Part shown: in pieces, positions 7,306-27,843 of the stretch
How positions within the stretch are numbered: position 1 is the first letter of the stretch
How the letters are laid out: every line of letters starts with the position of its first letter
Source: a candidate division NC10 bacterium CSP1-5
GTDB lineage: Bacteria; Methylomirabilota; Methylomirabilia; Methylomirabilales; CSP1-5
DNA: 64,000 nt
Reading direction: 5' to 3'
Assembly: GCA_001443495.1 (NCBI GenBank)
Contig: LDXR01000003.1
Coordinates: forward strand, 1,129-65,128
Program-made: the position numbers and the translations under genes
Notes under the pieces: generated by a model
Seen by the model: only the letters and a program-made list of their open reading frames with translations
The model's database searches: none
What the model was told of the DNA's origin: nothing

Positions 7306-9801
7306 TTACTGTGGCACTTCTATATCCCATCCCTCATACACGCCACACCACGTGACTACGTATAAATGCTGCGTATTCTTGGGATCAAAGACGACCTGGC
7401 CTTTATGTTTAAATCCTCCCTTAAAAGACATAGGCAAGTAGGGATTTATCTTTTCCCATGTCTCCCCACCGTTTTTCGACCGAAAAAGCCCCGTATCTTC
7501 GTACCGCATATCCCGGGCATACAAGGCTCTGTAAACGATATTTTTGTCCTTCGGATGGACCGTAACAAACTGGGTTTGCTGCTCATCAACTCTTTTCCAT
7601 GTTTTCCCTGCATCCGTACTCTTCCAAAGATGCGAATCAAAGGTCCAGTGCAGCTTCCCCTCACCCTTTGTCGCGACCACATAAATGACGGCAGGATCAC
7701 TTTTTGCCAATGCTAACGATTTTATTGTCCCAAATAATTCCGGGGATACTTTTCTCCAGAGGTCACCTCCATCTGAGGTCTTGTACAGACCTCCGTAGGA
7801 AGCAAGATAGATTTCCAAGTTATTTTGTGGATTCATTGCAAATTTCAAATAATAGTCATCATTGCTAACATCCTTAATATTGTCCAGGCCAAATTGAATT
7901 TGCTCTTTCCATGTCTTAGCGCCATCTTCGGATTTATACACTCCAGTGGAATATGCAACATACATCGTACGCCTGTCTGGGGGCGTGGTTGGATCAATTA
8001 AAATATCCTTCACGCCTAAAGTGGTAAAAGTGTCCTTTTTTCTCTGATATTTCTTCGCATTATTCTTTATAAGCTTATGGGAAGGCACAAAATCAGGGCC
8101 AATACTTTTAAAGGTAACACCCCCATCATCACTCTGGTATAATTTCCATATCTCTTTCTCTCCTAATCTGTCTAATGCAACCTTTCCCATCGTGCCGAGA
8201 AAAAGCCGGTCTCTCACATCAGGATCGTATACAACAACCCTGGTATCCACCCCCTCGCGAGCTAAGATCCCCCAGTACGACCATTCCCACCAATTGCCAC
8301 CATCTCTGGAAATCTGCAGCCCTTCGTCATCATATGATATGGCAATATTATTACTCAATGGATCCAGTGCAACATCCTGTGGAACAATCACCTGGAAGTT
8401 ACTACGTGCCATCCGTTTATGGGTAAAAGTGGAGAGACGTGTCATAGGCCCAAATTGTTTCATCGCAAGATCGTAAGAAGAAGATTTGTCACCATATTCA
8501 AATCCCAGCTCAAACCATGTCTTACCCCCGTTGGTCGTCATAAGCGCTCCAGACTTTCCGGTAATAATTACATGATCAGCACTGCTGGGAGCCATTACAA
8601 TACTGTGAAAACCACCTACAATTCCCCGGTTGGACCAATCCAAATTTCCCTCTCCTGTTTGCAAAAGATGCTCAGCGTATTTCCCGTCGAAATCCGGGAT
8701 GTGATTGTCCCATCGACCCGTTGGATACAATATTTGTCGCCACGACTGTCCCTGATCACGCGATTTGAACGCTTTATTGTCGACAACACAGAATAGAGTA
8801 TTTGCATCAGCAGGCGTGGAGGCTATTTTAATGAATCTTTCTGTCCTCTCTATTCCGATAGCGTTTTCTAGACCATTATTTGTTCCCACCCAGGTTTTCC
8901 CAACGTCATCGGAACGGTAAATCCCCCCATAGATTTTATCTGCTTTTTTGATGGGAAACATGGAGGCAAACAGAATTGTGTTCTGACGGTCAGATACCAG
9001 CGTAAGGTAATTGAATTCCAAGGAATGGGCAGCTCCTATTATGTCTGTATTTACCTTTTTCCAGGTCGAACCATAATCTTCGGAGATGATGAGTCCCGGT
9101 GTTTTAGATTGTGGATGTCTTAGCGCAAATATCCGTTTATGTCCTTTGCCTGCTATAAAAGAACTATTCGGATCAATTAAGATGCGCGCCCACACATTTC
9201 CTCGTTTCTGATCTTCTCCTAACGGATTTATCGTTTTCCAAGATTCGCCACCATCGATTGTTTTGTAGATCACGGTTCCATTTACCCAGTTCTGAAAATA
9301 CCCGGCTCCCGGGTCGCCGCTACCAGCGTACACGATCCTAGGATCCGTTGGGTCCACCTCAATATTGCCAATAAAATACGATGCGTCTCCGCCTAACAGA
9401 AATTCCCAGTTTTCCCCACCGTCACTGCTTTTATATAAACCATGAGTGCCGCCCGCCCATATGATCTCGGGTTTTTTCGGGTCAAAGACGCTTTGATGGG
9501 CACCCCGATAACCAGGATACCCGCCATATCTATATTGTGAGGTGACATATTTTCCCAATATATTCCAGGTTATACCTCCGTCCCTAGTGATAAAATGGAG
9601 TCCCATATCGATACCAATGGAAAAAATGCTTGGATTGGTTGGATGAAAGGCGGGACCACGCATGGTGCCTCTGGTTCCAGGTCCAATTAATCTCCACTGC
9701 ACTGCCTGTGCTTGGATTTGTGAATGGTAACCTAGAGTAAGAGTAGTTGTTGCAAAGATTATTAAAACTCTGACAGTTCTTTTCATTACCTTCGCTTTCA
9801 A
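7306..9801 (-). CDS. Secreted Asp-box (BNR) beta-propeller protein
   Basis: This 831-residue protein has a signal peptide (VRVLIIFATTTLTLGYHSQIQAQA) and about a dozen Asp-box motifs of the S-x-D-x-G-x-T-W type, for example SSDGGENW, TIDGGESW, SEDYGSTW, SDDVGKTW, SRDQGQSW, TTNGGKTW, SDDGGVTF, SEDGAKTW, TSDGGDLW, STDAGKTW and SKNGGETW. The layout suggests one or two seven-bladed propellers, as in VPS10-like and GH74-type proteins. No catalytic acid pair could be assigned with confidence. The start is a TTG at 9801 with an AGGTGA site, or an ATG at 9786. It is markedly richer in A+T than its neighbours. A role in binding or trimming the exported polymer is inferred from position only. Confidence 0.85.
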   Translation of the reverse strand: MKAKVMKRTVRVLIIFATTTLTLGYHSQIQAQAVQWRLIGPGTRGTMRGPAFHPTNPSIFSIGIDMGLHFITRDGGITWNILGKYVTSQYRYGGYPGYRGAHQSVFDPKKPEIIWAGGTHGLYKSSDGGENWEFLLGGDASYFIGNIEVDPTDPRIVYAGSGDPGAGYFQNWVNGTVIYKTIDGGESWKTINPLGEDQKRGNVWARILIDPNSSFIAGKGHKRIFALRHPQSKTPGLIISEDYGSTWKKVNTDIIGAAHSLEFNYLTLVSDRQNTILFASMFPIKKADKIYGGIYRSDDVGKTWVGTNNGLENAIGIERTERFIKIASTPADANTLFCVVDNKAFKSRDQGQSWRQILYPTGRWDNHIPDFDGKYAEHLLQTGEGNLDWSNRGIVGGFHSIVMAPSSADHVIITGKSGALMTTNGGKTWFELGFEYGDKSSSYDLAMKQFGPMTRLSTFTHKRMARSNFQVIVPQDVALDPLSNNIAISYDDEGLQISRDGGNWWEWSYWGILAREGVDTRVVVYDPDVRDRLFLGTMGKVALDRLGEKEIWKLYQSDDGGVTFKSIGPDFVPSHKLIKNNAKKYQRKKDTFTTLGVKDILIDPTTPPDRRTMYVAYSTGVYKSEDGAKTWKEQIQFGLDNIKDVSNDDYYLKFAMNPQNNLEIYLASYGGLYKTSDGGDLWRKVSPELFGTIKSLALAKSDPAVIYVVATKGEGKLHWTFDSHLWKSTDAGKTWKRVDEQQTQFVTVHPKDKNIVYRALYARDMRYEDTGLFRSKNGGETWEKINPYLPMSFKGGFKHKGQVVFDPKNTQHLYVVTWCGVYEGWDIEVPQ

Positions 9802-10778: not shown

Positions 10779-11987
10779 CTACCGAACGAATTGAGCGAAA
10801 GACTTGTCACGCCGAACAAGCGGTACCATTTCGTCCCGAGTACGGGTCAGGGCCGCGCTGGCGATGACGAAACTCAGAAACAGCCAGGTTGCCTTTTTAT
10901 ACTCGTACGTCAGGGCAGAAGCGCCGATGGCCCAAACCAAGAGAGTCGTAAGCCAGAATCTTGCGTCCCACTTAGGCTGGCCCCACGCGCTGATAACGGC
11001 GAACATCAGTATGGATCCAAATAGGGCGAACCCTATCAGCCCAAGCTCAACCAAGACCGATATAAAGGAGTTGTGAGCTATCTTACCCAGGCTATTCTCA
11101 GAGCTATACATGTCACCACCCACACCTATAAGCGGATGTTCCGAAAAGGTCGCAAGGCCTTCACGCCAATTATTTGTGCGATTATTGAGAGTGCCCTCAG
11201 AGAGTTCAGCATACGTAGTACCTAGCCGCTGAAAAGATCTTAGTGATTGGACATAAGGTAGCAAAATGAAGGCGGCCGATGTTAAAAGCAGCAGAACCGC
11301 AACCCGTGCTGAAAGTCGAAGACGGGTAAGTGCGGCAAGGCCAAACGCCATGCCAGGTACCGCAGCAATCATGGCTGTGCGAGTGCCGGACAGGGCAAGC
11401 CCCACAAAGGCTGCCGGGATGTAGGCGTAGTTTACCAACTTTAACAGGCCGCTCATTCTGGTGGTGTTCGCTGAAGCGGCAAGGTAAAAGGCCACAGGTA
11501 TGCCCAAAACCACGATGAACCCGAATCCGTCAGGGTTACTCTGATCAGAAGGACTGAAGCGTTGATAATGACTATAAAAAACGTTGCCGGAAAAATAGTT
11601 GGCAACCGCAATGCCAATGCCTACATATTCGCCCAGGATGAACGCTTGAAGTCCGGCCAATAGAGCTGCTCGTGTAGTGTAAAGATCCCACAAAATAAAG
11701 ACCATTCCGAGCAATTGAACCCATCTCACCACGTGAACTACCGTCGTCTCGGGATCCGCGCTCCAGAAGACACTCACAGCGTTCCACAACACAAAGAGGC
11801 AGACCATTATGTGAAATGGGCCGGGTTTGCGGACTCGGTCCGTGATAACAACTGTCGCCAGCCAGCAAACTGCCACCGCAAACCCGATGAGTTTGGACGC
11901 GGTACCCAGGCCGGGAAGCTCGATCACGCCTTCCCAAGGAATGAAAAAGATAAAAACCAGCGACAGCGTAAATGCAATAGTACGCAT
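10779..11987 (-). CDS. O-antigen ligase / Wzy-type polymerase
   Basis: This 402-residue integral membrane protein has ten or more hydrophobic segments and a large hydrophilic loop between about residues 255 and 300. In that loop are the family marks GVGGDMYSSEN and AHNSFISVLVELGLIG, typical of the Wzy_C (O-antigen ligase/polymerase) fold. In a locus with Wzx, Wzz and Wza homologues the simplest role is polymerisation of lipid-linked repeat units on the periplasmic side. WaaL and Wzy are hard to separate by sequence, so ligase activity remains possible. It follows the Wzx gene after 31 bases. Confidence 0.88.
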   Translation of the reverse strand: MRTIAFTLSLVFIFFIPWEGVIELPGLGTASKLIGFAVAVCWLATVVITDRVRKPGPFHIMVCLFVLWNAVSVFWSADPETTVVHVVRWVQLLGMVFILWDLYTTRAALLAGLQAFILGEYVGIGIAVANYFSGNVFYSHYQRFSPSDQSNPDGFGFIVVLGIPVAFYLAASANTTRMSGLLKLVNYAYIPAAFVGLALSGTRTAMIAAVPGMAFGLAALTRLRLSARVAVLLLLTSAAFILLPYVQSLRSFQRLGTTYAELSEGTLNNRTNNWREGLATFSEHPLIGVGGDMYSSENSLGKIAHNSFISVLVELGLIGFALFGSILMFAVISAWGQPKWDARFWLTTLLVWAIGASALTYEYKKATWLFLSFVIASAALTRTRDEMVPLVRRDKSFAQFVR

Positions 11988-12018: not shown

Positions 12019-13485
12019 TTACGTCTTCTCTAATTTCCAGCTCTGAACAGCGAGGCTAACACGCTCCAGCACCTGCCGGGAAAGTGATCGGGCTGCCACT
12101 CCTATAACCAGTAGATATGTCAGGCCGCCTGCCATTATATAAACAGATAGCTGCAGGTACAGGTTGAACCCCTGGTGCTGAAAGACATTTTTCAATCCCG
12201 CGATAACTAGAACCATAATCAAGGAAGCGGATAGTGGTGCCGCGAACTGCCGAAGGTACGTTCTGAAATCGATTTGGATCAGTCTGCGCACGGCCATATA
12301 GGAAACTGGCGCGAGTAGATAGCCGACAATGACGTATGAGGCAGCGACGGCTACAATGCCCCAGCGCACGGCGAGCACGAAACCGGTCACGCTGCAGACG
12401 GCATGCAGCAGCATAATACCGAATTGCCACGAGGGTTTACCGCAGGCCTTCATAACGCTGCCGTTAAAGGCTATAGCCGACTGCAGGATACCAATCAACG
12501 CCAGAACCTGCATGACGGGAATACTGGGTGCCCATTTCTCGCCGAAAACAGCCGGAACCACTTCTGGGGCCAAGATGGCCAGCCCAATGAAGATGGGAAA
12601 AGCTAGCAGGCTTGTATACTGTGTGACCTCGTAGAAGGCGCGTCGCATCCGTTTCGGTTTGTCTTGAAGGCGAGAGAATGTGGGAAACGCCACGGAGTTG
12701 ATAATACCCGTAGCTACTCTTGTGATGACTAACAGCAACCGGTAGCCTATCGTGTAATAACCCAGCAGAGTCGGCCCCAAGAAATAACCGATGAGAAGAT
12801 CGTCCGAGTGTCGGACCAACACTCTTAAAATGTTGTTTCCCACGACATATACGCCAAAGGTGAAGAGTTCCTTGTAATGCTTCATGGAGAGGCTAAGCCC
12901 TGGCCGCCAATCACTGGCCCGCCACAGAACAATGACCCCAGCCAGGCCCATCGCCAGATTCTGGGCGACCAGACTCCAGACGCCGAACCCGGCGAAAGCG
13001 AGGCTTACACCGACAATACCACCCGCCATTGTGGCCGTGAGTGAGCGGACGGCCAGGCTCTTGAACGCAAGCTCACGCTGGAGAATTGCCATCTGCGAGC
13101 TGCTCAGGGCGCTAAGTATGAAGCTAATTGACAGCCACCTCAAAACGGGCGCCAGGCGCGGCTCTGCAAACAATGCGGCCACCAATCCTGACACCGCTAT
13201 GCCGCCAACTGTCAACAGGATGCCGGTCAATATACTGATCCAGAAAGCCGTGTCGAGATGTTCCCGCTCGAGATCGGCGCGTTGCACGATTGCAGCGCTG
13301 AAACCTTGGTCCAGGAAAATATCGACAAAGGCCGTGAAAACAGAGGCCAGGGCCACCAAACCGAAATCTTCTGGACCCAGGAGGCGCGACAAGGCTACAA
13401 AGGTGACGAACCAGATAGCCGTCCTGCCCCACTTTTGGATGACGGACCAAACAATTCCTTTAGCTGCTTTTTCTCGCAAGCTCAT
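12019..13485 (-). CDS. Lipid-linked oligosaccharide flippase (Wzx, MOP superfamily)
   Basis: This 488-residue protein has 12 or more predicted membrane helices. It opens with KAAKGIVWSVIQKWG and SRLLGPEDFGLVALASVFTAF, the pattern of WzxC/polysaccharide exporters of the MOP superfamily. It should move undecaprenyl-linked repeat units across the inner membrane. Its gene lies directly before the polymerase gene, the usual Wzx-Wzy pairing. The ATG at 13485 is preceded by a GGTGAT site. Substrate specificity is unknown. Confidence 0.92.
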   Translation of the reverse strand: MSLREKAAKGIVWSVIQKWGRTAIWFVTFVALSRLLGPEDFGLVALASVFTAFVDIFLDQGFSAAIVQRADLEREHLDTAFWISILTGILLTVGGIAVSGLVAALFAEPRLAPVLRWLSISFILSALSSSQMAILQRELAFKSLAVRSLTATMAGGIVGVSLAFAGFGVWSLVAQNLAMGLAGVIVLWRASDWRPGLSLSMKHYKELFTFGVYVVGNNILRVLVRHSDDLLIGYFLGPTLLGYYTIGYRLLLVITRVATGIINSVAFPTFSRLQDKPKRMRRAFYEVTQYTSLLAFPIFIGLAILAPEVVPAVFGEKWAPSIPVMQVLALIGILQSAIAFNGSVMKACGKPSWQFGIMLLHAVCSVTGFVLAVRWGIVAVAASYVIVGYLLAPVSYMAVRRLIQIDFRTYLRQFAAPLSASLIMVLVIAGLKNVFQHQGFNLYLQLSVYIMAGGLTYLLVIGVAARSLSRQVLERVSLAVQSWKLEKT

Positions 13486-13607: not shown

Positions 13608-14423
13608 CTAAACAACCGGGACTCCCCTTCGATAGAGATGAAGCAAGGGTGTATAGAGCGTATAGTGTTTCAGGCGGCACAAGGTCAAGTTCCAGTAATT
13701 AAAATTGTTACGCTGTGTCTCCCGGTAACGCGCCACGTCTCCCTCGAGCGAAGGTCCATATTCTCGTTCATAGGTTGGGTATAACTCCTGTCTGACAAAG
13801 TCGTAAAGCTCCACGTCCGCCTTTTGAGCTTCGATGAGCATCTGTCGGGTGCTTTCGGTCGAGAGTAGGCGTTCTTTAATGGTATTCTTACGAGCCACGT
13901 TCACCCGCCTGTACGAGATATTCAAATCATTGGCCACTAGGGCTTTCAACAACACCATTGATTCATCAAAACGCTCAGTTAAGCCCACGAAAATGTTCTT
14001 TTGTTGGATAATCCGGATCGCTTCAGCCACATCGGCTTTACCAGCGATCCACTTCGTTTGGTGGTTTTGCGGCCACTCCTGATGGATCCACTCTTCAAAG
14101 ACCAGGTTTTTCTTCCTGGAGACTTGCACCTTATATTGAAAACGAGATGCGCATAGCTTCAGGGGGTCACGCATGAGAGTGAAATACTTGAACTCGGTGC
14201 CATTGGCCCCCAAATCGACATAGCCGGTGATGCGATGCCCGGCAATGCTTTTCAGGTTAGGGTAAACCCTGTGCAAGCGTTGTAGATCGTGCTTGGAAAA
14301 AGGCGGGCCTGTCGACCGGGCGTGCCAGGGCTCCACCTGACAGTGACGCAGCCCATAAGAACTACGCAGGATGTGGCTCAGTGTGGTGCCTCCAGTTTTG
14401 TGCATATGGATAAATGCAAGCAC
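13608..14423 (-). CDS. Sulfotransferase family 2 protein
   Basis: This 271-residue protein starts FIHMHKTGGTTL, the P-loop form of the family 2 (HNK-1/chondroitin type) sulfotransferases. A second block YFTLMRDPLKLCASRF matches the 3'-phosphate binding site RDP. A GTG at 14423 behind a GGAGAT site is the likely start. It differs clearly from the NST-like protein at 9892, so the two probably modify different positions or sugars. It lies between the Wzx gene and a P-loop kinase gene. Acceptor unknown. Confidence 0.87.
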   Translation of the reverse strand: MLAFIHMHKTGGTTLSHILRSSYGLRHCQVEPWHARSTGPPFSKHDLQRLHRVYPNLKSIAGHRITGYVDLGANGTEFKYFTLMRDPLKLCASRFQYKVQVSRKKNLVFEEWIHQEWPQNHQTKWIAGKADVAEAIRIIQQKNIFVGLTERFDESMVLLKALVANDLNISYRRVNVARKNTIKERLLSTESTRQMLIEAQKADVELYDFVRQELYPTYEREYGPSLEGDVARYRETQRNNFNYWNLTLCRLKHYTLYTPLLHLYRRGVPVV

Positions 14424-14441: not shown

Positions 14442-15149
14442 TCACAGTCCCCGGACACCATCAAATGTGGCCAGAACTTCACCTACAATCTGCTCTGCCG
14501 ATTTTTTACTTGTGTCAAAACGGAGCAACGCTACTTGATGATCAGTCACAGATCGGACGATTAACCGCTCCATGGCTGTTCGGTACCGAGTCAAGAATTC
14601 GTATGCCTCCCTTTCACATTTCTCCTTGATTACATGCCAGTGGTCACGGCAGCGAATGCGGTCCAGCAGGATCACATTCGGCGCATCAAGCCAGATGATC
14701 ATATCCAGAGTAGCAGCCCACTGACTAAACAGATTGGCCCACCATCTCGCGTACAGTTGACTTGTGGTCAATTCGGGGCCAAACTCACGGAGCGTAGCCA
14801 GCCTGTAAATTGGTCCATGATCCAAGACGGTCACCACATCATTATTCAACGCCTCTTGCCGAAAAACATGAAGCCCTGCCTTTAGATATACCATTGATCT
14901 GGTTTCTCTCCAGTTAAACCACCTGCTGTGTCGGTAATGGCGAAGATACGTCGGCAGCATAGAAAAGGTATTGCTTATGAAGAATGGAATTTGCCTTGTC
15001 TTGGGGAGAGGAATACCCGGCTGGATTGTTTTATCCCGTCGGCTCAGGGCTCGCACAAGTGTAGTCTTTCCCGCGCCTGCGGGCCCCATGATTTCCACTA
15101 CGAGGGGTGGTTTTTCTACAATTGTGTTACTGGTGGCCCCGTTATTCAT
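14442..15149 (-). CDS. Thymidylate kinase-like P-loop kinase
   Basis: This protein of about 235 residues has Walker A GPAGAGKTT near its start (residues 22-30), a DHGP block that may be the Walker B or base region, and MIIWLDAPNVILLDRIRCRD, which resembles the LID region of nucleoside or thymidylate kinases. A longer frame opens at 15305, but the ATG at 15149 overlaps the stop of the upstream sulfotransferase by eight bases, which suggests translational coupling. Genes of this type recur in sulfated or phosphorylated glycan loci, but the substrate is not known. I do not assign it a nucleotide metabolism role. Confidence 0.78.
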   Translation of the reverse strand: MNNGATSNTIVEKPPLVVEIMGPAGAGKTTLVRALSRRDKTIQPGIPLPKTRQIPFFISNTFSMLPTYLRHYRHSRWFNWRETRSMVYLKAGLHVFRQEALNNDVVTVLDHGPIYRLATLREFGPELTTSQLYARWWANLFSQWAATLDMIIWLDAPNVILLDRIRCRDHWHVIKEKCEREAYEFLTRYRTAMERLIVRSVTDHQVALLRFDTSKKSAEQIVGEVLATFDGVRGL

Positions 15150-16092
15150 ACTGCGTCCTAGCGTAATCCGCGTCGAGCCGTGCCTTGAGGGCGTTGCAAA
15201 CATCTTGGATGGTGGGATCAATGCCCGGCCGTGGGTGCTTGCCCACCGAGCTTGCGAAAATGCCATCGATAATCGCGGGATCAAAGGGGAAGCCCAGGAA
15301 GCCAAAAATCCTCCGAAATGCTTTCTCCGTGTTCAGGACGGTATCCTCGTACTGCACGATTAACACACGCGGGTCCACGTGGAGGTTGAGGTCGAAGTAA
15401 AGCTGGTTGCGCATGTACCAGTAGAGAGAGGCAACGTCCTCGTTGGAGAGATCCTCACGAAAAAGCTGGCCGAAGAGCCGCACCGTGTCGGCGCTTATCC
15501 GCTTACCACGTGAGCCGAGCTTCTCGAGCTCGCCACAAGCGACCCAACGCGCAAGATTCTTTTGGTGCTCTCCCCACCCTCTGCGGACGCAGGAGTTCGC
15601 GACATCCTCGTAGCAGCGGTAGACCCAAATCGCCCTCGCACCCTCGAACCGTGAGAGCAGGTCGTCAGTGAATTGGGAGTCGAGGATGCTGCCAAAGCTA
15701 ATGATTGGGGCTGGCATGCGACGGATCAACCACTCGATGATCCAGTCCGCGCGGAGGTAATACGCATTGAACGCGAGGCTGAACTCGCTCTCCTGGTAGG
15801 CCCAACCATGAGGCGACTGACCGATGGCGTTGCACACCATATTTGTCCCGGAACGATTGCAGCCAACGATAAAGACTGGGAGCTTCTCTGTGGTCGGGTG
15901 TGGCGTTCGGCGCATCTGTCGCCACTTGCGTCTTCGTTCTAGTACACGGCTTATCGCCCTCTCGACGTCGATGTTCCGAAGCCGGTTGATGACCCGTTTC
16001 CGCCGCATATCGCGCCCGTCGTAAGGACGGGTCTCGATCGCACGCCCCAAGCCCCAGGAACGGCGGAGGCTATCGGGAGACTTTCTGGTCAT
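15142..16092 (-). CDS. Sulfotransferase family protein
   Basis: This 316-residue protein has an arginine-rich N-terminal region of about 70 residues, then the PAPS loop VGCNRSGTN (residues 76-84) and a possible 3'-phosphate site in AIWVYRCYEDVANSCVRRG. It resembles the broad Sulfotransfer_3 group. A GGAGAG site precedes the ATG at 16092 by about eight bases. It is the third sulfotransferase of the locus and is only distantly related to the other two. The RCYED block replaces the usual R-D-P spacing, so the 3' site assignment is tentative. Confidence 0.83.
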   Translation of the reverse strand: MTRKSPDSLRRSWGLGRAIETRPYDGRDMRRKRVINRLRNIDVERAISRVLERRRKWRQMRRTPHPTTEKLPVFIVGCNRSGTNMVCNAIGQSPHGWAYQESEFSLAFNAYYLRADWIIEWLIRRMPAPIISFGSILDSQFTDDLLSRFEGARAIWVYRCYEDVANSCVRRGWGEHQKNLARWVACGELEKLGSRGKRISADTVRLFGQLFREDLSNEDVASLYWYMRNQLYFDLNLHVDPRVLIVQYEDTVLNTEKAFRRIFGFLGFPFDPAIIDGIFASSVGKHPRPGIDPTIQDVCNALKARLDADYARTQYE

Positions 16093-16117: not shown

Positions 16118-17719
16118 TTACAACTGTGACCAAATGACAGCCTTTAAGTCAGTTAGGATGTCTCTCTTCGATTTGCTGCCATCAATAACGTGGGCGTCCG
16201 TGCGAGCCCAGTTCAGCTCCCATATCTCAGTATTTCGCTCCCGCACGAAGGCCGCATCCTCATCGGTCTTACGTTGAACGGCGATCTCTGGGTCAACTCG
16301 GAGTACGACTAACACCTCCGGCAACACTGTTTGGCGGTAGTAACTTTCCTCTCGCTTTACCAAACTCCTGGCGAATCGACTGGCTCGATGCGGGCTCATG
16401 AATTGGTCAGCTAGCGGTCCATTTTCTAGTTGGCTCAGGAATCGTCCGCCTTGAGGCCCATCCATGAGCGTGATTTGAGGCAGAGGAAACCTGTCAAGGA
16501 TTGCCAAGCCACCATTGGCGGCAAAACGTCGAGCCTTAATATAGGTCCAGTAGCGATCACGGGCTCTACACACCTCTCGCAGCAGCCACGGATATCCCGG
16601 AGATAGAAGAGATTTCTGATTAAGCGTCTCTCGAAAGGATGAATCCACCGGATATAAGCCCAATAAGTTGCCAATCTTTAGGATTCCTCTAATAGTCAAC
16701 GTCGTCCACGACCAGGAGGGTCTTCCCAGGTGTACCCTGGCCGTTGCAAAATTCTTCGAAAGCCAAGCGTAGAGCCCATCGATCGCTGTTGACTTGCCGG
16801 CGCCGTCCCCGCCGACGATGGCGATCATGGCCCCCCCATTCTCCAAGCGACATTTGGGTGAGGATTTGAAGATACGGCGGCGCATGGCCAAAGTCGCTCG
16901 ACGCCACAGCTTCAAATAGATATCGATAGGCACCGGGCGACGGGCGTTTGCCCGAAGTTTGGTCTGCAGTTGTTGCCCAGTTTTCACCCGCGTCCAAGTG
17001 GAGCAACCTGGTTGCAGCGCTTGCAGGCAGTTGTTGAACAACTCAATACTTATATAGGGCAGATGCCGCTTTAAGATGTTATCCACACGATCCTGGTTAA
17101 TCCGGGCCTCTAGGTAGGCTAGCTCTCGTCGCTCGGCGGCTCTCAATGTCCCCTCGCCACCAAGAATAACGTCCCACGTCGAATGTTTTAATACCATCCG
17201 AATGACGAAAACGATGAATTCAAACTCGGCTGCGGGAACTTTGAACAGATCGTCCTGAACGGCCGACTCAAGATAGGGCCGCTCGATCGGAAGGCGATAA
17301 TTTTTTGTCATATCATGGCCCAGAATGAGTTGATAATGGGCATGAACATGGATCAATCTATCCGCCGCTTCATCATAACCGTAGTAGTCCAGAACACCGG
17401 GTACCTGTTTTTCTGCCGGAGCCTTTCCTTGCTTAAATCCTAATCGACACAAGATTCTGGTAAATCGTGGTACGTCAGCCCGGCTCACCAGGAGATCAAG
17501 ATCGTTCTCCCCGCTGGCCGAACGGTCGAGCGCGTTGTTACTTTTCCAATGACAATAGGTTATTCCTTCTGCCTCTAACGCTTGGCACAGTCTATGGATG
17601 AGATCCAGTGTTGACGGCTTATCGGTGATGCTCTTTTCGAGCAGGCGATCCAAATTGTCCGAGCTGTTGGTGTTACGATAGCTCTGTTGGGTCGTGGCTA
17701 TATGTTGGTAATGATTCAT
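16118..17719 (-). CDS. Nucleotidyltransferase-fold / thymidylate kinase-like fusion protein
   Basis: This 533-residue protein joins two domains. Residues of about 35-260 contain CHWKSNNALDRSASGENDLDLLV, the signature of the uncharacterised nucleotidyltransferase family (NTP_transf_5 type) with a D-x-D pair at 73 and 75. From about 297 onward is a kinase domain with Walker A GGDGAGKS (303-310), AILDRFPLP and a C-terminal VVLRVDPEIAVQRKTDED, as in thymidylate kinases. Its ATG overlaps the stop of the pyruvate kinase-Sat gene by four bases (ATGA), so the two are probably translated together. The reaction is unknown; modification of a sugar, lipid or nucleotide in this pathway is possible. Confidence 0.82.
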   Translation of the reverse strand: MNHYQHIATTQQSYRNTNSSDNLDRLLEKSITDKPSTLDLIHRLCQALEAEGITYCHWKSNNALDRSASGENDLDLLVSRADVPRFTRILCRLGFKQGKAPAEKQVPGVLDYYGYDEAADRLIHVHAHYQLILGHDMTKNYRLPIERPYLESAVQDDLFKVPAAEFEFIVFVIRMVLKHSTWDVILGGEGTLRAAERRELAYLEARINQDRVDNILKRHLPYISIELFNNCLQALQPGCSTWTRVKTGQQLQTKLRANARRPVPIDIYLKLWRRATLAMRRRIFKSSPKCRLENGGAMIAIVGGDGAGKSTAIDGLYAWLSKNFATARVHLGRPSWSWTTLTIRGILKIGNLLGLYPVDSSFRETLNQKSLLSPGYPWLLREVCRARDRYWTYIKARRFAANGGLAILDRFPLPQITLMDGPQGGRFLSQLENGPLADQFMSPHRASRFARSLVKREESYYRQTVLPEVLVVLRVDPEIAVQRKTDEDAAFVRERNTEIWELNWARTDAHVIDGSKSKRDILTDLKAVIWSQL

Positions 17720-20016
17720 AACTCTTCCCTTTTTTCAAAAACGTCTTCACCGTTCTTTACCGCATCAAGAGCTATATTTGAGATTTCCGGTCGCATAAAC
17801 CAGCTAGGGGGCCTCTCTCCTCTCAACAACATTGCTCTAGCGTGTGAGCCACTTATTATGCGTAGCTTATCGCTTTCCTCATGATGAGCGAATTTACCGT
17901 TTTCCTCTACATATCTATTCAATTTTCTTGAATAGAAAATCTCATTGAATTTAACTATCTCAATTCCCAAATCGGGAAAGTTATCGAATATTCTGTGGGA
18001 GGCATACGGGTCATAATAATCGGCAACGCCTGTATGGTCCCGGCCAATAATGAAGTGACTGCATCCAAAATTCTTTCGACACAGGGCGGTAAATACAGCT
18101 TCTCTGGGGCCCGCATACCTTGAGAATGTCGCAAACGCAGCGAGTACAACCTTTTCTTTCGGGTAAAAACGTTCTATTATTTTCTCATAGCTTTTGATAA
18201 TGTACTCAGGCTTGAAATCTCCGGGTTTCTTCTTGCCGACTAGCGGCTGCACAAGAAGGCCATCGCAATGTTTGTCTGCCAGTGCTTTTAACTGCATAAA
18301 TTCATGGCCCCTATGCGGCACATTTCGCGTATGGAAACCAAGCACCTTGGACCAGCCTCTGTCTTCAAACAGTCTCCGTAGTTGTTTTGGGGTTAGTTCA
18401 TATGCCCTTGTTTCTGATCTTCTACCTTTGATTAGATCTATTTGCCCGGCCAACAGAACTGGTTGCATCTCATGGACCATCCTTACTCCAGGATGGTCGC
18501 GGCAGTCAGTACCATACATCTGTTTTACCGTACCTTCCCTATCAATACGGTATTTGTCTTCTAGATGAAGGAGGGCCATCACTTCACCCTGGTCGTCCGT
18601 TAATCCCACGACTTCGCCAATTGATAATTTGTCTGCAATCTCCTCAGAGACATCCAAAACGATAGGGACCGGCCACACGATGCCATTGGCTAACCGCATG
18701 GCGCCTAAAACAGAGAGGAAATCTTCCTGGCCCATAAATCCTGCTAGCGGGCTGTAGGTACCGACAGAAATTTGTTCAACATCCATTTGCTTATTCTGGT
18801 CCAATTGTATTTTTGGGAGTAAGCCCAGGTAGCTTTTGTCCGGTGGATTGGCCAGGACACGATTTACCAACTTGCCGCCGTGGGGTCGAACTAGAGACGA
18901 CGATACATTTTCTAGGAGATAGTTTGAAGTTTCTAAGGATTCAATAAGACCATTTTCTCGGTGTTTAGGGTCAATCCCGTTGACGACTAATTCAGCGTGG
19001 TGAATTAACTTGTTTAGCATGTTAATACACTCAATCGGGTATTTTCCGATGGCGGTTTCAGCCGCCAACGTCAGTCCCAACGCACCATCAACAATGGTGT
19101 TTACAACATCGTGCACCTCTGCGCGCGTTGGTTTTTTTCTCTGAACCATTGTTTCTAATAGGTTGGTTGCAACAAAAACGCCCGTATTGTACCGGCGCGC
19201 CTTGTGCATAATTACTTTTTGGGTAAACGGTATCTTCTCCATTGGGATCTCTTTGCTTAGGTCACCCCGGTCGATCAGAATGAAATCTGATTTGTGAACA
19301 ATCTCATCGATATTCTCCAAGGCTTCCACACACTCTACCTTTGAAATGATTTTCATCTTACCTTGGGTGACCCTCCTAACCTCATCAATGGAGGCCCCAG
19401 ACCGGACGAAGGAGACGGCTATGTGGTCTATCCCCGCCTTTAAACCCAATTCAATGGCGTGGTAGTCTTTTGGCGATAAGGGGGGGAGTTGAAACTTCTT
19501 TTCAAAAACAGGATCGATCACGACTGCCTTATTTCTGCCAATTCGCCCACCGCTTATTGTCTTTGCGGTAACGTATCCCTTTGACGCGCTCGAAACGTCT
19601 GTAACGCGTAATATCAGCGTGTCAAAATCGACATAGATCAGATCTCCGACTTCCAGTTGTTCGACCACGTATCCCGGTCTTAGACAGAGTTTTCTTCTAT
19701 TGCCAGGGATATCTTCAGCATAAATGTCAACTACGTCGTTTGCTCTAAAATGAATGAGCTCCCTCTCTAAACTACCTGTCCTTACCTGAGATCCTTCGGT
19801 GTCGATAATGAAAGAGATGCCAACCCTTTTGGATAAACTCATGAAGTATTCCAGATCTTTTAGGCTTGAATGCGACATATTAACCCTGACAAAATCGACA
19901 TCTTTATCCTTCATTTTCCTCAAGTCTTGTTCAGTGTTCGTGGCCGGACCGAGGGTAACGATTATTTTTGTATGTCTTTTAGTCATAATGTGTGTTCCCA
20001 CGTCAATTATCTTCAT
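17716..20016 (-). CDS. Pyruvate kinase-ATP sulfurylase fusion protein
   Basis: This 766-residue protein joins two enzymes. Residues 12-345 are a pyruvate kinase A+B unit: RVNMSH (44-49), DTEG (72-75), RTG (79-81), SKVE (225-228, catalytic Lys226), DRGD (249-252), VATNLLETM (282-290) and PTRAE (296-300). The pyruvate kinase C domain is missing. Residues of about 375-750 are a complete ATP sulfurylase with GRDHTGVADYY (658-668) and ISGSHARAML (721-730). Its sulfate-site motif reads HTRNVPHRGH (562-571), with His where the family usually has Gln. Both halves therefore look active. One idea is that PEP-driven ATP regeneration is tied to sulfate activation, which is inference. A second, conventional Sat-CysC lies upstream. 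The gene is A+T-richer than its neighbours and starts an ATGA-coupled series. Confidence 0.9.
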   Translation of the reverse strand: MKIIDVGTHIMTKRHTKIIVTLGPATNTEQDLRKMKDKDVDFVRVNMSHSSLKDLEYFMSLSKRVGISFIIDTEGSQVRTGSLERELIHFRANDVVDIYAEDIPGNRRKLCLRPGYVVEQLEVGDLIYVDFDTLILRVTDVSSASKGYVTAKTISGGRIGRNKAVVIDPVFEKKFQLPPLSPKDYHAIELGLKAGIDHIAVSFVRSGASIDEVRRVTQGKMKIISKVECVEALENIDEIVHKSDFILIDRGDLSKEIPMEKIPFTQKVIMHKARRYNTGVFVATNLLETMVQRKKPTRAEVHDVVNTIVDGALGLTLAAETAIGKYPIECINMLNKLIHHAELVVNGIDPKHRENGLIESLETSNYLLENVSSSLVRPHGGKLVNRVLANPPDKSYLGLLPKIQLDQNKQMDVEQISVGTYSPLAGFMGQEDFLSVLGAMRLANGIVWPVPIVLDVSEEIADKLSIGEVVGLTDDQGEVMALLHLEDKYRIDREGTVKQMYGTDCRDHPGVRMVHEMQPVLLAGQIDLIKGRRSETRAYELTPKQLRRLFEDRGWSKVLGFHTRNVPHRGHEFMQLKALADKHCDGLLVQPLVGKKKPGDFKPEYIIKSYEKIIERFYPKEKVVLAAFATFSRYAGPREAVFTALCRKNFGCSHFIIGRDHTGVADYYDPYASHRIFDNFPDLGIEIVKFNEIFYSRKLNRYVEENGKFAHHEESDKLRIISGSHARAMLLRGERPPSWFMRPEISNIALDAVKNGEDVFEKREEL

Positions 20017-20227: not shown

Positions 20228-21508
20228 TCACTCCTGGTCAGCAATTTTATATACGACTCTATCCCCATTTCTTGAGTCCTCAATCGAAAAATACAATTCA
20301 TCTGTGGTTTCATTCGACGAGCTTAGTAACGACACCTTATGAGTGGTTCCATTATACTCAATGATTTTGCTCCAGTTTCTTCCACCATTGACTGTATACA
20401 TTAGGAGAGACTTTGTATTAGCTGTGGAGAAAGGTAAATGCGCCCATATTTCATTAGCTTTTTTCGACTTCCTTTGGATCATATTATTTATCGGGCTTCT
20501 TCGATAAGGGTCAGGCACAATTCTTTCGGCAAAGTGCTTGCCATCTGTCGTTTCTACAATAAAATTGGTCCCGCCTTGATAATCTGTCCCAAACAATAGT
20601 TTGTCATCAGTTTCAACAATCGATGTATACCCTCCCATTTGGATATGAAACCTATTCACAGGTGTCATCTTAAGGTCTTTCACATCAACCGAGTTCACCG
20701 AATCGCTCATCCATAGCTTCTTTTTGTTATCACCGTCTGCGACAAATATCCTATTTAGCAATTTACTGTACTTGACGAGGTGAACGTGCTTGTTGATTCC
20801 TTGTTGAATCAAAAAGTCCGATTTATCCCACCTTTCTCCGTTATCAGAACTGTAATATAGGTATGCCAGTTTCCTCCAGCCCCTTTTGTCCCACACATTA
20901 CCATATTCCCCTATTATTAACGTCCTGTGCGGTGTTTCTGTCATTCCATTATTGTACCTGAACCAACTTTCCGACGAAGCCAACTCTAACGCTTTGGTGA
21001 ATGAGCCACCATTATCTGAACTTTTATAAACAGCTCCTCGTGCGCATACAAAGATTGTGTTGTGGGCGGAAATAAATATAGACTTGATCCGCTCGGGGAA
21101 TCGCGTCACAAGAATTATATGGTTTCCATTGTCGACGCTCTTATAGAGGTTTTTATCATCTGGATATAAACATCCAAAGATCTCTTTATTGCCCGTGATA
21201 AATAGAAGTTTCCAATTGTGCTCGGACCTAATAACGCTTAGGTCTCTGGTTGTGAGAAAATGATGTATTCTTGTGTTGAAATCGGGACCGGTCAATTTGT
21301 CATTGTCTAATGTGAATACGTCGCCATGATTGAATTGCAGATATTTCGATTTCGGGAACAATCTGAATCTGTGAAAGAACTCCCAAACCATAAATGAAAC
21401 GATTTCGCGAAACTTGCCATACCTATATATGTCGTGAGCAAATAAAAGTGGATTAATCACTTTCTTTTCAAATAGCGAAGAATGGCGTTTTGTTAATTCA
21501 CGCCCCAT
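20228..21508 (-). CDS. Asp-box / sialidase-like propeller protein without signal peptide
   Basis: This 426-residue protein has several degenerate Asp-box motifs (KSSDNGGSF, YSSDNGERW, ETTDGKHF, TVNGGRNW) and so is probably a beta-propeller of the BNR/sialidase-like type. No signal peptide is visible; the N-terminus is basic with a short hydrophobic patch (IVSFMVWEFFHRF). An AAAGGA site precedes the ATG at 21508. It is the most A+T-rich gene of the window, which points to recent acquisition. It sits between wza and the PK-Sat gene. Catalytic residues of true sialidases were not recognised. Its location and substrate are unknown. Confidence 0.75.
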   Translation of the reverse strand: MGRELTKRHSSLFEKKVINPLLFAHDIYRYGKFREIVSFMVWEFFHRFRLFPKSKYLQFNHGDVFTLDNDKLTGPDFNTRIHHFLTTRDLSVIRSEHNWKLLFITGNKEIFGCLYPDDKNLYKSVDNGNHIILVTRFPERIKSIFISAHNTIFVCARGAVYKSSDNGGSFTKALELASSESWFRYNNGMTETPHRTLIIGEYGNVWDKRGWRKLAYLYYSSDNGERWDKSDFLIQQGINKHVHLVKYSKLLNRIFVADGDNKKKLWMSDSVNSVDVKDLKMTPVNRFHIQMGGYTSIVETDDKLLFGTDYQGGTNFIVETTDGKHFAERIVPDPYRRSPINNMIQRKSKKANEIWAHLPFSTANTKSLLMYTVNGGRNWSKIIEYNGTTHKVSLLSSSNETTDELYFSIEDSRNGDRVVYKIADQE

Positions 21509-26012: not shown

Positions 26013-27755
26013 TCAGTGGTTTCCGTACAAGTCACTCCTCACGAACCCCTTTTCAACCAAATACCTCATGATCTTCCGCGCATTCTCTTCTGGGGGACAA
26101 TCTGTCGTGGTCAACGTGACCTCGGCAGCAATTGGTTCCTCGTAGGGATCATCAATGCCGGTAAAGTCTGTGATTTCCCGCCGCCGCGCCTTGGAGTACA
26201 TGCCCTTAGCGTCGCGCTGCTCGCATACCTCGAGCGGGGTGTCTACGAACACTTCCACGAAACGGTCTTTGCCGACCATGTTGCGCACCTCATCCCGCGT
26301 CGCCCGGTATGGACTTACCGCCGCGCATATCACAGTTCCACCATGGCGCACAGTCTCCGCTGCGACAAAACCGATGCGCCGGATGTTGGTGTCCCGATCT
26401 TCCTTGCTAAACCCTAGGCCCTTCGAGAGATGCGTGCGCACCACATCGCCGTCCAGCACCGTGACCTGCCGACCGTACTCCAGCAAAAGGACGGTTAGGA
26501 TTTCAGCCGTAGTGGACTTGCCGGAGCCACTCAGCCCGGTAAACCAGATGCACACCCCCTGGCGGTGCCGTGGCGGGTGGGCCCCGGACAGAATCGTGGC
26601 TACTTCCGGCCGTGTAAACCACTTCGGCAACCGCTTGCCATTGTCGAGGTACTCCTCACGAACTTGGGTCCCAGAGATGGTCGCAGTGCGCGCGTGGGCT
26701 GGTATTTTGGAGATCTCCTCATAGCGGTCTTCTTCGGGCAGATACACCAACTCGCCGAAAGGTACCATCTTGACCCCCAACTCATCGCTGAAGCTCGCCA
26801 CCAGCTCCTGCGCATCGTAGGGTCCGTAGAAGGGCTTCCCCGTTGAGTCGACGCCGGGACTGGCATGATCAGGTCCCACGATCAGGTGATTGGCGCCATG
26901 GTTGCGGCGAATAAGCGCGTGCCACACCGCCTCCCTGGGACCGGCCAAACGCATCGCGAGGGGCAGCAACGCCAGCAGGATCCGGTCGGGGCCGTAGTAA
27001 CGTTCGGTAAGCGCTTTGTACGTCCGCACGCGGGTATACTGGTCCACATCTCCTGGCTTGGTCATGCCGACCACTGGGTGCAGCAATAACACTCCATCAA
27101 CCTCCTGCGCGGCCCGCTTGGTCAGCTCCTCGTGGACCCGATGCAATGGATTACGAGTCTGGAAGGCCACAACGTTCTGATAGCCGAACGATCCAAGCCT
27201 CGCCCGCGTCTGGGCCGGCGTCAGGCGGAGTTCCTGGAAATCGTAATGGCGCGGCAACCGTAGGACCTGCAGGCGACCGGAAATATTCAGGGGGCCCCAC
27301 CGGTGCATCTCTGCTACTAACGGATGGCGCAGATCTTGTGTCCCAAAGACTTTCTCGCTTTCTTCGACACGATCCCTCTCGTAAATCTCTTCAATTACCA
27401 TCAATGCCAGGAGTTCGTTCTTGGCATCCCGTAAGGCGATCTCCTGGTCCAGGCGGATCGCAGGGCCAGGATCCACTGGGAGCGTCACCGGGATCGGGAA
27501 GACACATCCGCCCGCTACCCGCATTTCGTCCAACACGCGCTGGTAATCCTCTAGACCCATAAAGTGCTCGAGCGGAGAAAATGCGCCCGTCGCCAACAGT
27601 TCGAGGTCACAGCAGGAACGTGCGGAGAGTTGGATAGACGGAAGGCCCTTTGCCTTCCTTAAAGGTTCGTCACGTTCTTCACCCGAGACGACCACATTAA
27701 CGAGCGTACCCCCGCACGGCGGAATGAGCAACGAGCGCTCGGTAGCAGTGTTCAT
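26013..27755 (-). CDS. sat-cysC: Bifunctional sulfate adenylyltransferase / APS kinase (Sat-CysC)
   Basis: This protein of about 580 residues converts sulfate and two ATP to PAPS, the donor for the sulfotransferases of the locus. Residues 1 to about 380 are an ATP sulfurylase with the canonical FQTRNPLHRVHE, VGPDHASPGVDS and GTQVREEYLDNGK. The APS kinase domain follows with Walker A GLSGSGKST, DGDVVRTHLSKGLGFSKEDRD and the LID region around AKGMYSKARR. A longer frame opens at 27803, but GGGAG eight bases before the ATG at 27755 supports the later start. It lies between the UDP-sugar dehydrogenase gene and glmU, so sulfate activation is built into the polysaccharide operon. Confidence 0.97.
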   Translation of the reverse strand: MNTATERSLLIPPCGGTLVNVVVSGEERDEPLRKAKGLPSIQLSARSCCDLELLATGAFSPLEHFMGLEDYQRVLDEMRVAGGCVFPIPVTLPVDPGPAIRLDQEIALRDAKNELLALMVIEEIYERDRVEESEKVFGTQDLRHPLVAEMHRWGPLNISGRLQVLRLPRHYDFQELRLTPAQTRARLGSFGYQNVVAFQTRNPLHRVHEELTKRAAQEVDGVLLLHPVVGMTKPGDVDQYTRVRTYKALTERYYGPDRILLALLPLAMRLAGPREAVWHALIRRNHGANHLIVGPDHASPGVDSTGKPFYGPYDAQELVASFSDELGVKMVPFGELVYLPEEDRYEEISKIPAHARTATISGTQVREEYLDNGKRLPKWFTRPEVATILSGAHPPRHRQGVCIWFTGLSGSGKSTTAEILTVLLLEYGRQVTVLDGDVVRTHLSKGLGFSKEDRDTNIRRIGFVAAETVRHGGTVICAAVSPYRATRDEVRNMVGKDRFVEVFVDTPLEVCEQRDAKGMYSKARRREITDFTGIDDPYEEPIAAEVTLTTTDCPPEENARKIMRYLVEKGFVRSDLYGNH

Positions 27756-27843
27756 CTCGGCGACTCCCATCCGAATCTGCCTCGAAGTGCCTCTGCGCTG
27801 CACGGGAGGAAAGGGACCTGGTGGGTCTTTTTAAGATTAGATA

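Follow-up and report, generated by a model that had tools for sequence, protein, structure and literature searches.

A pyruvate kinase-ATP sulfurylase fusion family in bacteria, archaea and one phage, and its possible role in making PAPS for sulfated glycans

In this study, we show that a minus-strand gene in a 64,000-nucleotide stretch of DNA from the candidate division NC10 bacterium CSP1-5 (the whole stretch is called the window here) encodes a pyruvate kinase (PK) barrel joined in a single chain to an ATP sulfurylase (Sat). The PK-Sat fusion represents a distinct and real enzyme family, apparently undescribed, that is found in bacteria, archaea and one phage. Its architecture is widely spread, its PK halves are monophyletic with conserved core residues, both halves are under purifying selection, and its genes are tied to those of the adenosine 5'-phosphosulfate (APS) kinase CysC and of sulfotransferases. 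With modest confidence, we think that the family probably belongs to a module making 3'-phosphoadenosine 5'-phosphosulfate (PAPS) for sulfated glycans, in which PK would use phosphoenolpyruvate (PEP) to recycle the ADP of CysC to ATP. An earlier note on this DNA, made from its letters alone, knew of no described enzyme with this domain pair; in agreement with this, we found no account of a PK joined to an ATP sulfurylase in the open-access papers searched, a search that excluded subscription papers and domain-architecture databases. The gene and its parts are as follows.

17716..20016, minus strand: PK-Sat fusion gene, 766 amino acids, ATG start, no internal stops
19024..19977, minus strand: pyruvate kinase barrel domain, residues 14-331 (PF00224, E 1.8e-66), with the signature DTEGSQVR, VDF, IDRGDLS, ATNLLE
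18427..18888, minus strand: PUA_2, the N-terminal domain of ATP sulfurylase, residues 377-530 (PF14306, E 4.7e-47)
17773..18405, minus strand: ATP sulfurylase catalytic domain, residues 538-748 (PF01747, E 8.1e-75)
18331..18333, minus strand: codon of His562, which replaces the sulfate-site Gln

A Pfam domain search, of the kind proposed in the earlier note, gives the order PK barrel, PUA_2, ATP sulfurylase in one uninterrupted frame. The PK half scores 225 bits against PF00224 (cut-off 30) and does not pass TIGR01064, the NCBI pyruvate kinase equivalog (281 bits, cut-off 306.4). The PK C-terminal domain, already reported as absent, has no Pfam match in the window protein, and the barrel continues into Sat. 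The Sat half passes the NCBI sulfate adenylyltransferase models TIGR00339 (349 bits, cut-off 323) and PRK04149 (420 bits, cut-off 387). Its HxxH, RN, GPREA and GRDH motifs are all present (FHTRNVPHRGHE, RYAGPREA, GRDHTGV) and, together with the PK core residues described below, they bear out the claim that the main catalytic motifs are intact in both halves; the Gln of the QxRN sulfate site is missing, and His562 stands in its place as had been seen before. Within the window protein there is no Pfam match to an APS kinase domain or to an inorganic pyrophosphatase domain. An AlphaFold2 model made with a 42-sequence family alignment as input reached a predicted local distance difference test score (pLDDT) of 90 and a predicted template modeling score (pTM) of 0.83, and in Foldseek searches its two halves matched solved structures, those of ATP sulfurylases for the Sat half (8a8d, E 7e-44) and those of pyruvate kinases for the PK half (E about 1e-35). 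Met11 (window position 19986) is probably the true conserved start, as the ten residues before it show no conservation and are modelled as disordered. The G+C content of the gene is 45%, against 57% for the window.

Used as a single query against genome contigs and viral contigs, the window protein gave no match, and an alignment of the PK half was needed to find relatives. Scanned over 84,980 species genomes, this alignment revealed 154 of them, in a survey of the kind suggested in the earlier note. Relatives occur in Chloroflexota, lineages of the candidate phyla radiation (CPR), DPANN archaea, Omnitrophota, Elusimicrobiota, Planctomycetota, Bacteroidota, Proteobacteria, Actinomycetota and others; 80 loci, over ten phyla, were read, and adding the window copy, two plasmid copies and a phage copy gives the 84 family members considered here. 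A full-length Sat lies behind PK in 75 of the 84, and several of the others are truncated at the end of a contig. Full-length homologues with 38-39% identity are present on the complete megaplasmids of Sinorhizobium chiapasense and Ensifer adhaerens, and two chromosomes have the same architecture, a complete one from Mesorhizobium and a 1.43-Mb one from Omnitrophota that is assembled as a single contig. An assembly, binning or frame error in the window's genome might be suspected, since that genome (2.77 Mb, three Sats) is in 40 contigs and no other genome among the 95 examined for its phylum, all of one class, has the fusion. However, dozens of independent genomes, complete plasmids and chromosomes included, carry the fusion, and a Chloroflexi contig holds the same cassette. 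Assembly error as the origin of the fusion is therefore rejected, its probability being negligible, and the fusion is a true one as first claimed. Moreover, dN/dS ranged from 0.03 to 0.15 in both halves wherever it was computable, and both are under purifying selection.

A tree that included 12 control PKs and Escherichia coli PykF placed all 84 family PKs on one side of a branch (Shimodaira-Hasegawa-like approximate likelihood ratio test, SH-aLRT, 100), and the single family clade was recovered again with 32 control PKs, 20 of which belong to relatives that have the fusion as well. The catalytic, metal, PEP and K+ site residues R32, N34, S36, D66, K220, E222, D246 and T278 (E. coli PykF numbering), the nucleotide-phosphate residues H37, R73 and K156, and also T67 and S192, are kept in 83 or 84 of the 84 members. 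Thus the PK half shares the barrel fold and the catalytic, PEP, metal and K+ residues of pyruvate kinase, but it differs in lacking the C-domain, in scoring below the equivalog cut-off, in forming a separate clade and in its active-site signature. Glu68, Gln71, Asp243 and Asn279 (K68E, E71Q, A243D, Q279N) are invariant in 84/84, and the lid residue Asp127 is replaced by Phe in 78 (D127F). All 32 control PKs have Asp127, Ala243 and Lys71, and most have Gln279, with Asn in one. In published surveys, the position of Gln71 is occupied by Glu or Lys, rarely by Ser or Arg, and by Gln in some Crenarchaeota (PMC4374775). It seems very improbable, then, that the fusion joins an ordinary PK to an ordinary Sat, with PK serving glycolysis or giving ATP to its own Sat and having no special relation to APS kinase. 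The fusion is the only PF00224 match in 17 of the 40 genomes examined, which would suit such a role, but another match is present in the other 23, the signature is absent from the control PKs, PK outlives Sat (see below), and the loci are concerned with glycan sulfation and not with central metabolism. In locus L163 (G131:C38:1-3000) there is a second, divergent PK-like protein of 438 amino acids with a C-terminal extension, in the gene order Sat, PK-like, CysC; it has DRGDLS and lacks DTEGxQ, and it clusters with the control PKs on a very long branch.

The sulfate-site position of Sat is His in 70 of the 75 fusion Sats and Gln in 20/20 unfused Sats, and His562 is therefore a family trait. The closest solved structures to the Sat half are the prokaryotic ATP sulfurylases of Methanothermococcus (8a8d) and Thermus (1v47), which share its HxxH and RN motifs; the fusion differs from them in the Gln to His change and in the position of Sat behind PK. 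The Sat site is destroyed in four members, two from Thauera, one from a Gammaproteobacterium and one from a Planctomycetota (for example, FQARGPATRLDEH for FHTRNVPHRGHEF), and one Rhodospirillales member has several deviant Sat motifs (FYTHN, GSDYAGV). All five retain an intact or almost intact PK core, indicating that PK has a task that does not need its own Sat, and this persistence is as expected if PK serves APS kinase. Hence the proposal that PEP-driven ATP regeneration is tied to sulfate activation stands as the best reading, but ATP for Sat is too simple a form of it, because PK outlives a ruined Sat site, and CysC is the more telling partner. The same persistence, and the existence of a stand-alone PK without Sat, speak against the PK half being a sensor or scaffold that would respond to PEP or a nucleotide and regulate Sat or CysC without catalysis. 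The loss of the C-domain and the several changed active-site positions would agree with such a role, as would the regulatory domains of fungal Sats, for example an APS-kinase-like domain (PMC2275785). However, the acid/base Lys220, the metal ligands E222 and D246, T278 and the K+-site residues are invariant, more strictly so than the residues of the Sat half, and we consider a purely regulatory PK improbable. Some related genomes (G037, G039, G046, G048, G051 and G057, with L018 among them) have Sats inside open frames of 960-1030 amino acids, possibly another Sat fusion or merely long GC-rich frames.

CysC is fused C-terminally in seven of the 84 members (PK-Sat-CysC) and lies within 100 bases in 36, one of them a Sat-CysC, so that it is fused or adjacent in 43/84, the adjacent genes often overlapping; in five more it is farther away. 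Three Gammaproteobacteria have a stand-alone PK of 320 amino acids with CysC directly after it and Sat elsewhere. A match to PF01583 is present in 37 of the 40 genomes examined. In the PK-fused and the non-rhizobial adjacent CysCs, DI..NN or a near variant of it takes the place of the canonical CysC motif DR..NIRR (Ile is seen, for instance, in L074:12172-12702 and at the C-terminus of L054:9983-12790), the exception being the truncated copy in L067; the rhizobial linked CysCs keep the Arg and have lost the Asn. The Arg that gives way to Ile is an APS contact in the human and Penicillium enzymes. By contrast with the linked CysCs, the Sat-CysCs in the same loci and the stand-alone control CysCs have the normal motif. 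With PK, Sat and linked CysC sites all altered, all three active sites of the module share changes, and the linked CysCs look as if they had been altered together with PK and Sat. The active-site substitutions of the PK half and of the linked CysCs, which had gone unnoticed in the earlier note, are thus family-wide, as is that of the Sat half, and the PK half is not an ordinary PK.

Sulfotransferases account for 25 of the 135 other neighbour proteins of the fusion, followed by methyltransferases and glycosyltransferases, whereas among neighbours of unfused Sats they number 0/50 and the commonest protein is PAPS reductase. The enrichment (Fisher p 0.0004) is indicative only, the control Sat loci being short (about 4 kb) and from related genomes of other lineages. 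No PAPS-reductase-family match was found in five Pacearchaeota genomes and the single-contig Omnitrophota chromosome, and therefore PAPS is not for assimilation in those genomes.

By inference, the PK half would act on PEP and ADP, the Sat half would form APS, and the two activities would be coupled with that of APS kinase. Sat would convert ATP and sulfate to APS, and an APS kinase, fused or adjacent in many relatives and in the window supplied by a Sat-CysC 6 kb away, would convert APS to PAPS with release of ADP. On the spot, PK would turn this ADP and PEP into ATP, so that the net reaction would be sulfate + ATP + PEP to PAPS + pyrophosphate (PPi) + pyruvate, and neighbouring sulfotransferases would use the PAPS on an exported polysaccharide. 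It is known that APS kinase is limited by a dead-end enzyme-APS-ADP complex (for review see PMC3734648), which removal of ADP by PK would relieve, and in vitro the addition of PK and PEP lets PAPS accumulate with PAPSS1 (PMC9885120). Recycling of the ADP of APS kinase explains both the tie to CysC and the Sat-less PK beside CysC, and it is further supported by the retention of the PK core and nucleotide-phosphate residues, by the 7 fused and 36 adjacent CysCs, by the sulfotransferase neighbours, by the genomes without a PAPS-reductase-family match and by the purifying selection on both halves.

Several observations weigh against ADP recycling. Plain ATP regeneration does not account for the invariant PK signature (with D127F in most members), for the His at the Sat sulfate site or for the altered APS-site motif of the linked CysCs. 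No CysC was seen in 36 of the 84 loci, some of which are cut by contig ends, and Thauera has neither a good Sat site nor a nearby CysC. In addition, four Pacearchaeota that carry the fusion (L079, L090, L094 and L117) lack a convincing APS kinase, three having no PF01583 match and one a marginal, partial match; a sulfotransferase gene is near the fusion in three of these four. The signature, the co-altered CysC and Thauera are thus poorly explained, and this keeps alive an alternative in which the PK half passes the phosphoryl group of PEP to an acceptor other than ADP within the PAPS cycle, such as APS, 3'-phosphoadenosine 5'-phosphate (PAP) or another 3'-phosphonucleotide. Sat and CysC would have been altered in step, and the new route would make or recycle activated sulfate and may replace APS kinase in some genomes. 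We regard this as unlikely. The strict signature, with an Asp127 present in 32/32 controls mostly lost, the DR..NIRR to DI..NN change and the Pacearchaeota genomes all speak for it. On the other side, PK retains its PEP-site, metal and nucleotide-phosphate residues, and the genomes that lack CysC are small and in draft form. Moreover, CysC is fused or adjacent in half of the loci, so that in most cases APS kinase has not been displaced, and the idea that PK replaces it in general was not adopted. The narrower proposition that a PK-fold enzyme has switched from ADP to a nucleotide of sulfate activation (APS, PAP or another 3'-phosphonucleotide), creating a second PEP-driven route with a co-altered Sat and CysC, appears to us rather doubtful.

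The phage member also bears on a changed acceptor. On viral contig L029, a family PK that stands alone and has the full signature is encoded along with a sulfotransferase and an overlapping nucleotidyltransferase-like protein of 123 amino acids. In 20 other viral loci, this nucleotidyltransferase is, in nearly all readable cases, fused or adjacent to an APS-kinase-like P-loop protein, and one of these loci adjoins a sulfotransferase. The PK of L029 therefore sits where an APS-kinase-like protein adjoins the same nucleotidyltransferase elsewhere, a point in favor of an acceptor other than ADP. That the nucleotidyltransferase is a miniature Sat was not established, as its model resembles the NadM, PPAT and Sat folds to a similarly weak degree and it has no Pfam family. 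Viral contigs L031-L050 encode an APS-kinase-like P-loop protein together with a small HxGH nucleotidyltransferase, either as a fusion or as neighbours, and the pair often lies between uvsX-like and replicative-helicase-like genes (names by inspection).

The other genes of the window locus are consistent with the sulfated-glycan setting first proposed for it, as they include sulfotransferases and flippase-like and polymerase-like genes (identities are to the proteins of Chloroflexi contig L051).

9892..10725, minus strand: sulfotransferase (PF13469, E 2.9e-16)
10779..11987, minus strand: polysaccharide polymerase/ligase-like membrane protein, named by inspection only (64%)
12019..13485, minus strand: polysaccharide flippase-like protein, named by inspection only (72%)
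13608..14423, minus strand: sulfotransferase of Gal-3-O type (PF06990, E 8.4e-9; 71%)
14442..15305, minus strand: P-loop kinase-like protein; the 5' end of the called frame is uncertain and overlaps the sulfotransferase
15142..16092, minus strand: sulfotransferase (PF13469, E 1.2e-11; 65%)
16118..17719, minus strand: NTP_transf_5-like and P-loop kinase-like protein, sub-threshold in Pfam (67%)
20228..21508, minus strand: BNR/sortilin-like repeat protein, upstream of the fusion (62%)
26013..27803, minus strand: canonical Sat-CysC, about 6 kb from the fusion

The stop codon of the fusion overlaps the start of the 16118..17719 gene (ATGA), an operon junction. Contig L051 holds most of this cassette, the proteins being 53-76% identical, but has the BNR gene on the other side of the fusion, and the simplest reading is that of a shared, laterally moved sulfated-polysaccharide cassette. 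The BNR protein at 20228-21508 travels with the fusion in L051, and another BNR/sortilin-like repeat protein is encoded at 7306-9801 in the polysaccharide locus. P-loop kinase-like and NTP_transf_5/P-loop proteins such as those at 14442-15305 and 16118-17719 recur near the fusion in many other genomes. The earlier note had taken the nearby Sat-CysC as a sign that the fusion has a distinct job. The arrangement does recur, with a Sat-CysC next to or near the fusion also in L052 and L059, but the Sat-CysC may merely supply APS kinase, and the one at 26013..27803 is the likely source of this enzyme for the window locus.

The proposed module has partial counterparts among known systems. Bifunctional PAPS synthases (Sat-CysC; Aquifex 2gks, human PAPSS1) likewise link Sat to APS kinase, as do the seven PK-Sat-CysC relatives, but the fusion adds an N-terminal PK, the window copy is without a CysC domain, and the family differs by the sulfate-site His and by the APS-site motif of the linked CysC. 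In diatoms, oomycetes and haptophytes, ATP sulfurylase-pyrophosphatase fusions remove PPi (PMC2275785); in both cases removal of a co-product would pull an unfavourable pathway, except that PK-Sat would remove ADP by means of PEP and PK and not PPi. PAPS cascades built by hand use PK and PEP for ATP regeneration (PMC9885120) and comprise the same activities, ATP sulfurylase, APS kinase, PK and sulfotransferase, but chemists combine separate enzymes whereas here they are apparently evolved fusions and operons.

If ADP recycling by PK is correct, bacteria, CPR lineages and DPANN archaea would have a widespread, unannotated route to the PAPS needed for glycan sulfation, a high-energy metabolite of glycolysis would be coupled directly to sulfation, and the PK-driven PAPS cascade that chemists build by hand would also have arisen by evolution. 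Single-chain PK-Sat-CysC enzymes could then be used to generate PAPS without any assembly of parts. With its invariant substitutions, the family poses a question on the substrate choice of pyruvate kinases that can be tested directly, and its PK signature provides a marker by which sulfated-polysaccharide loci can be recognized in the sequences of uncultured lineages.

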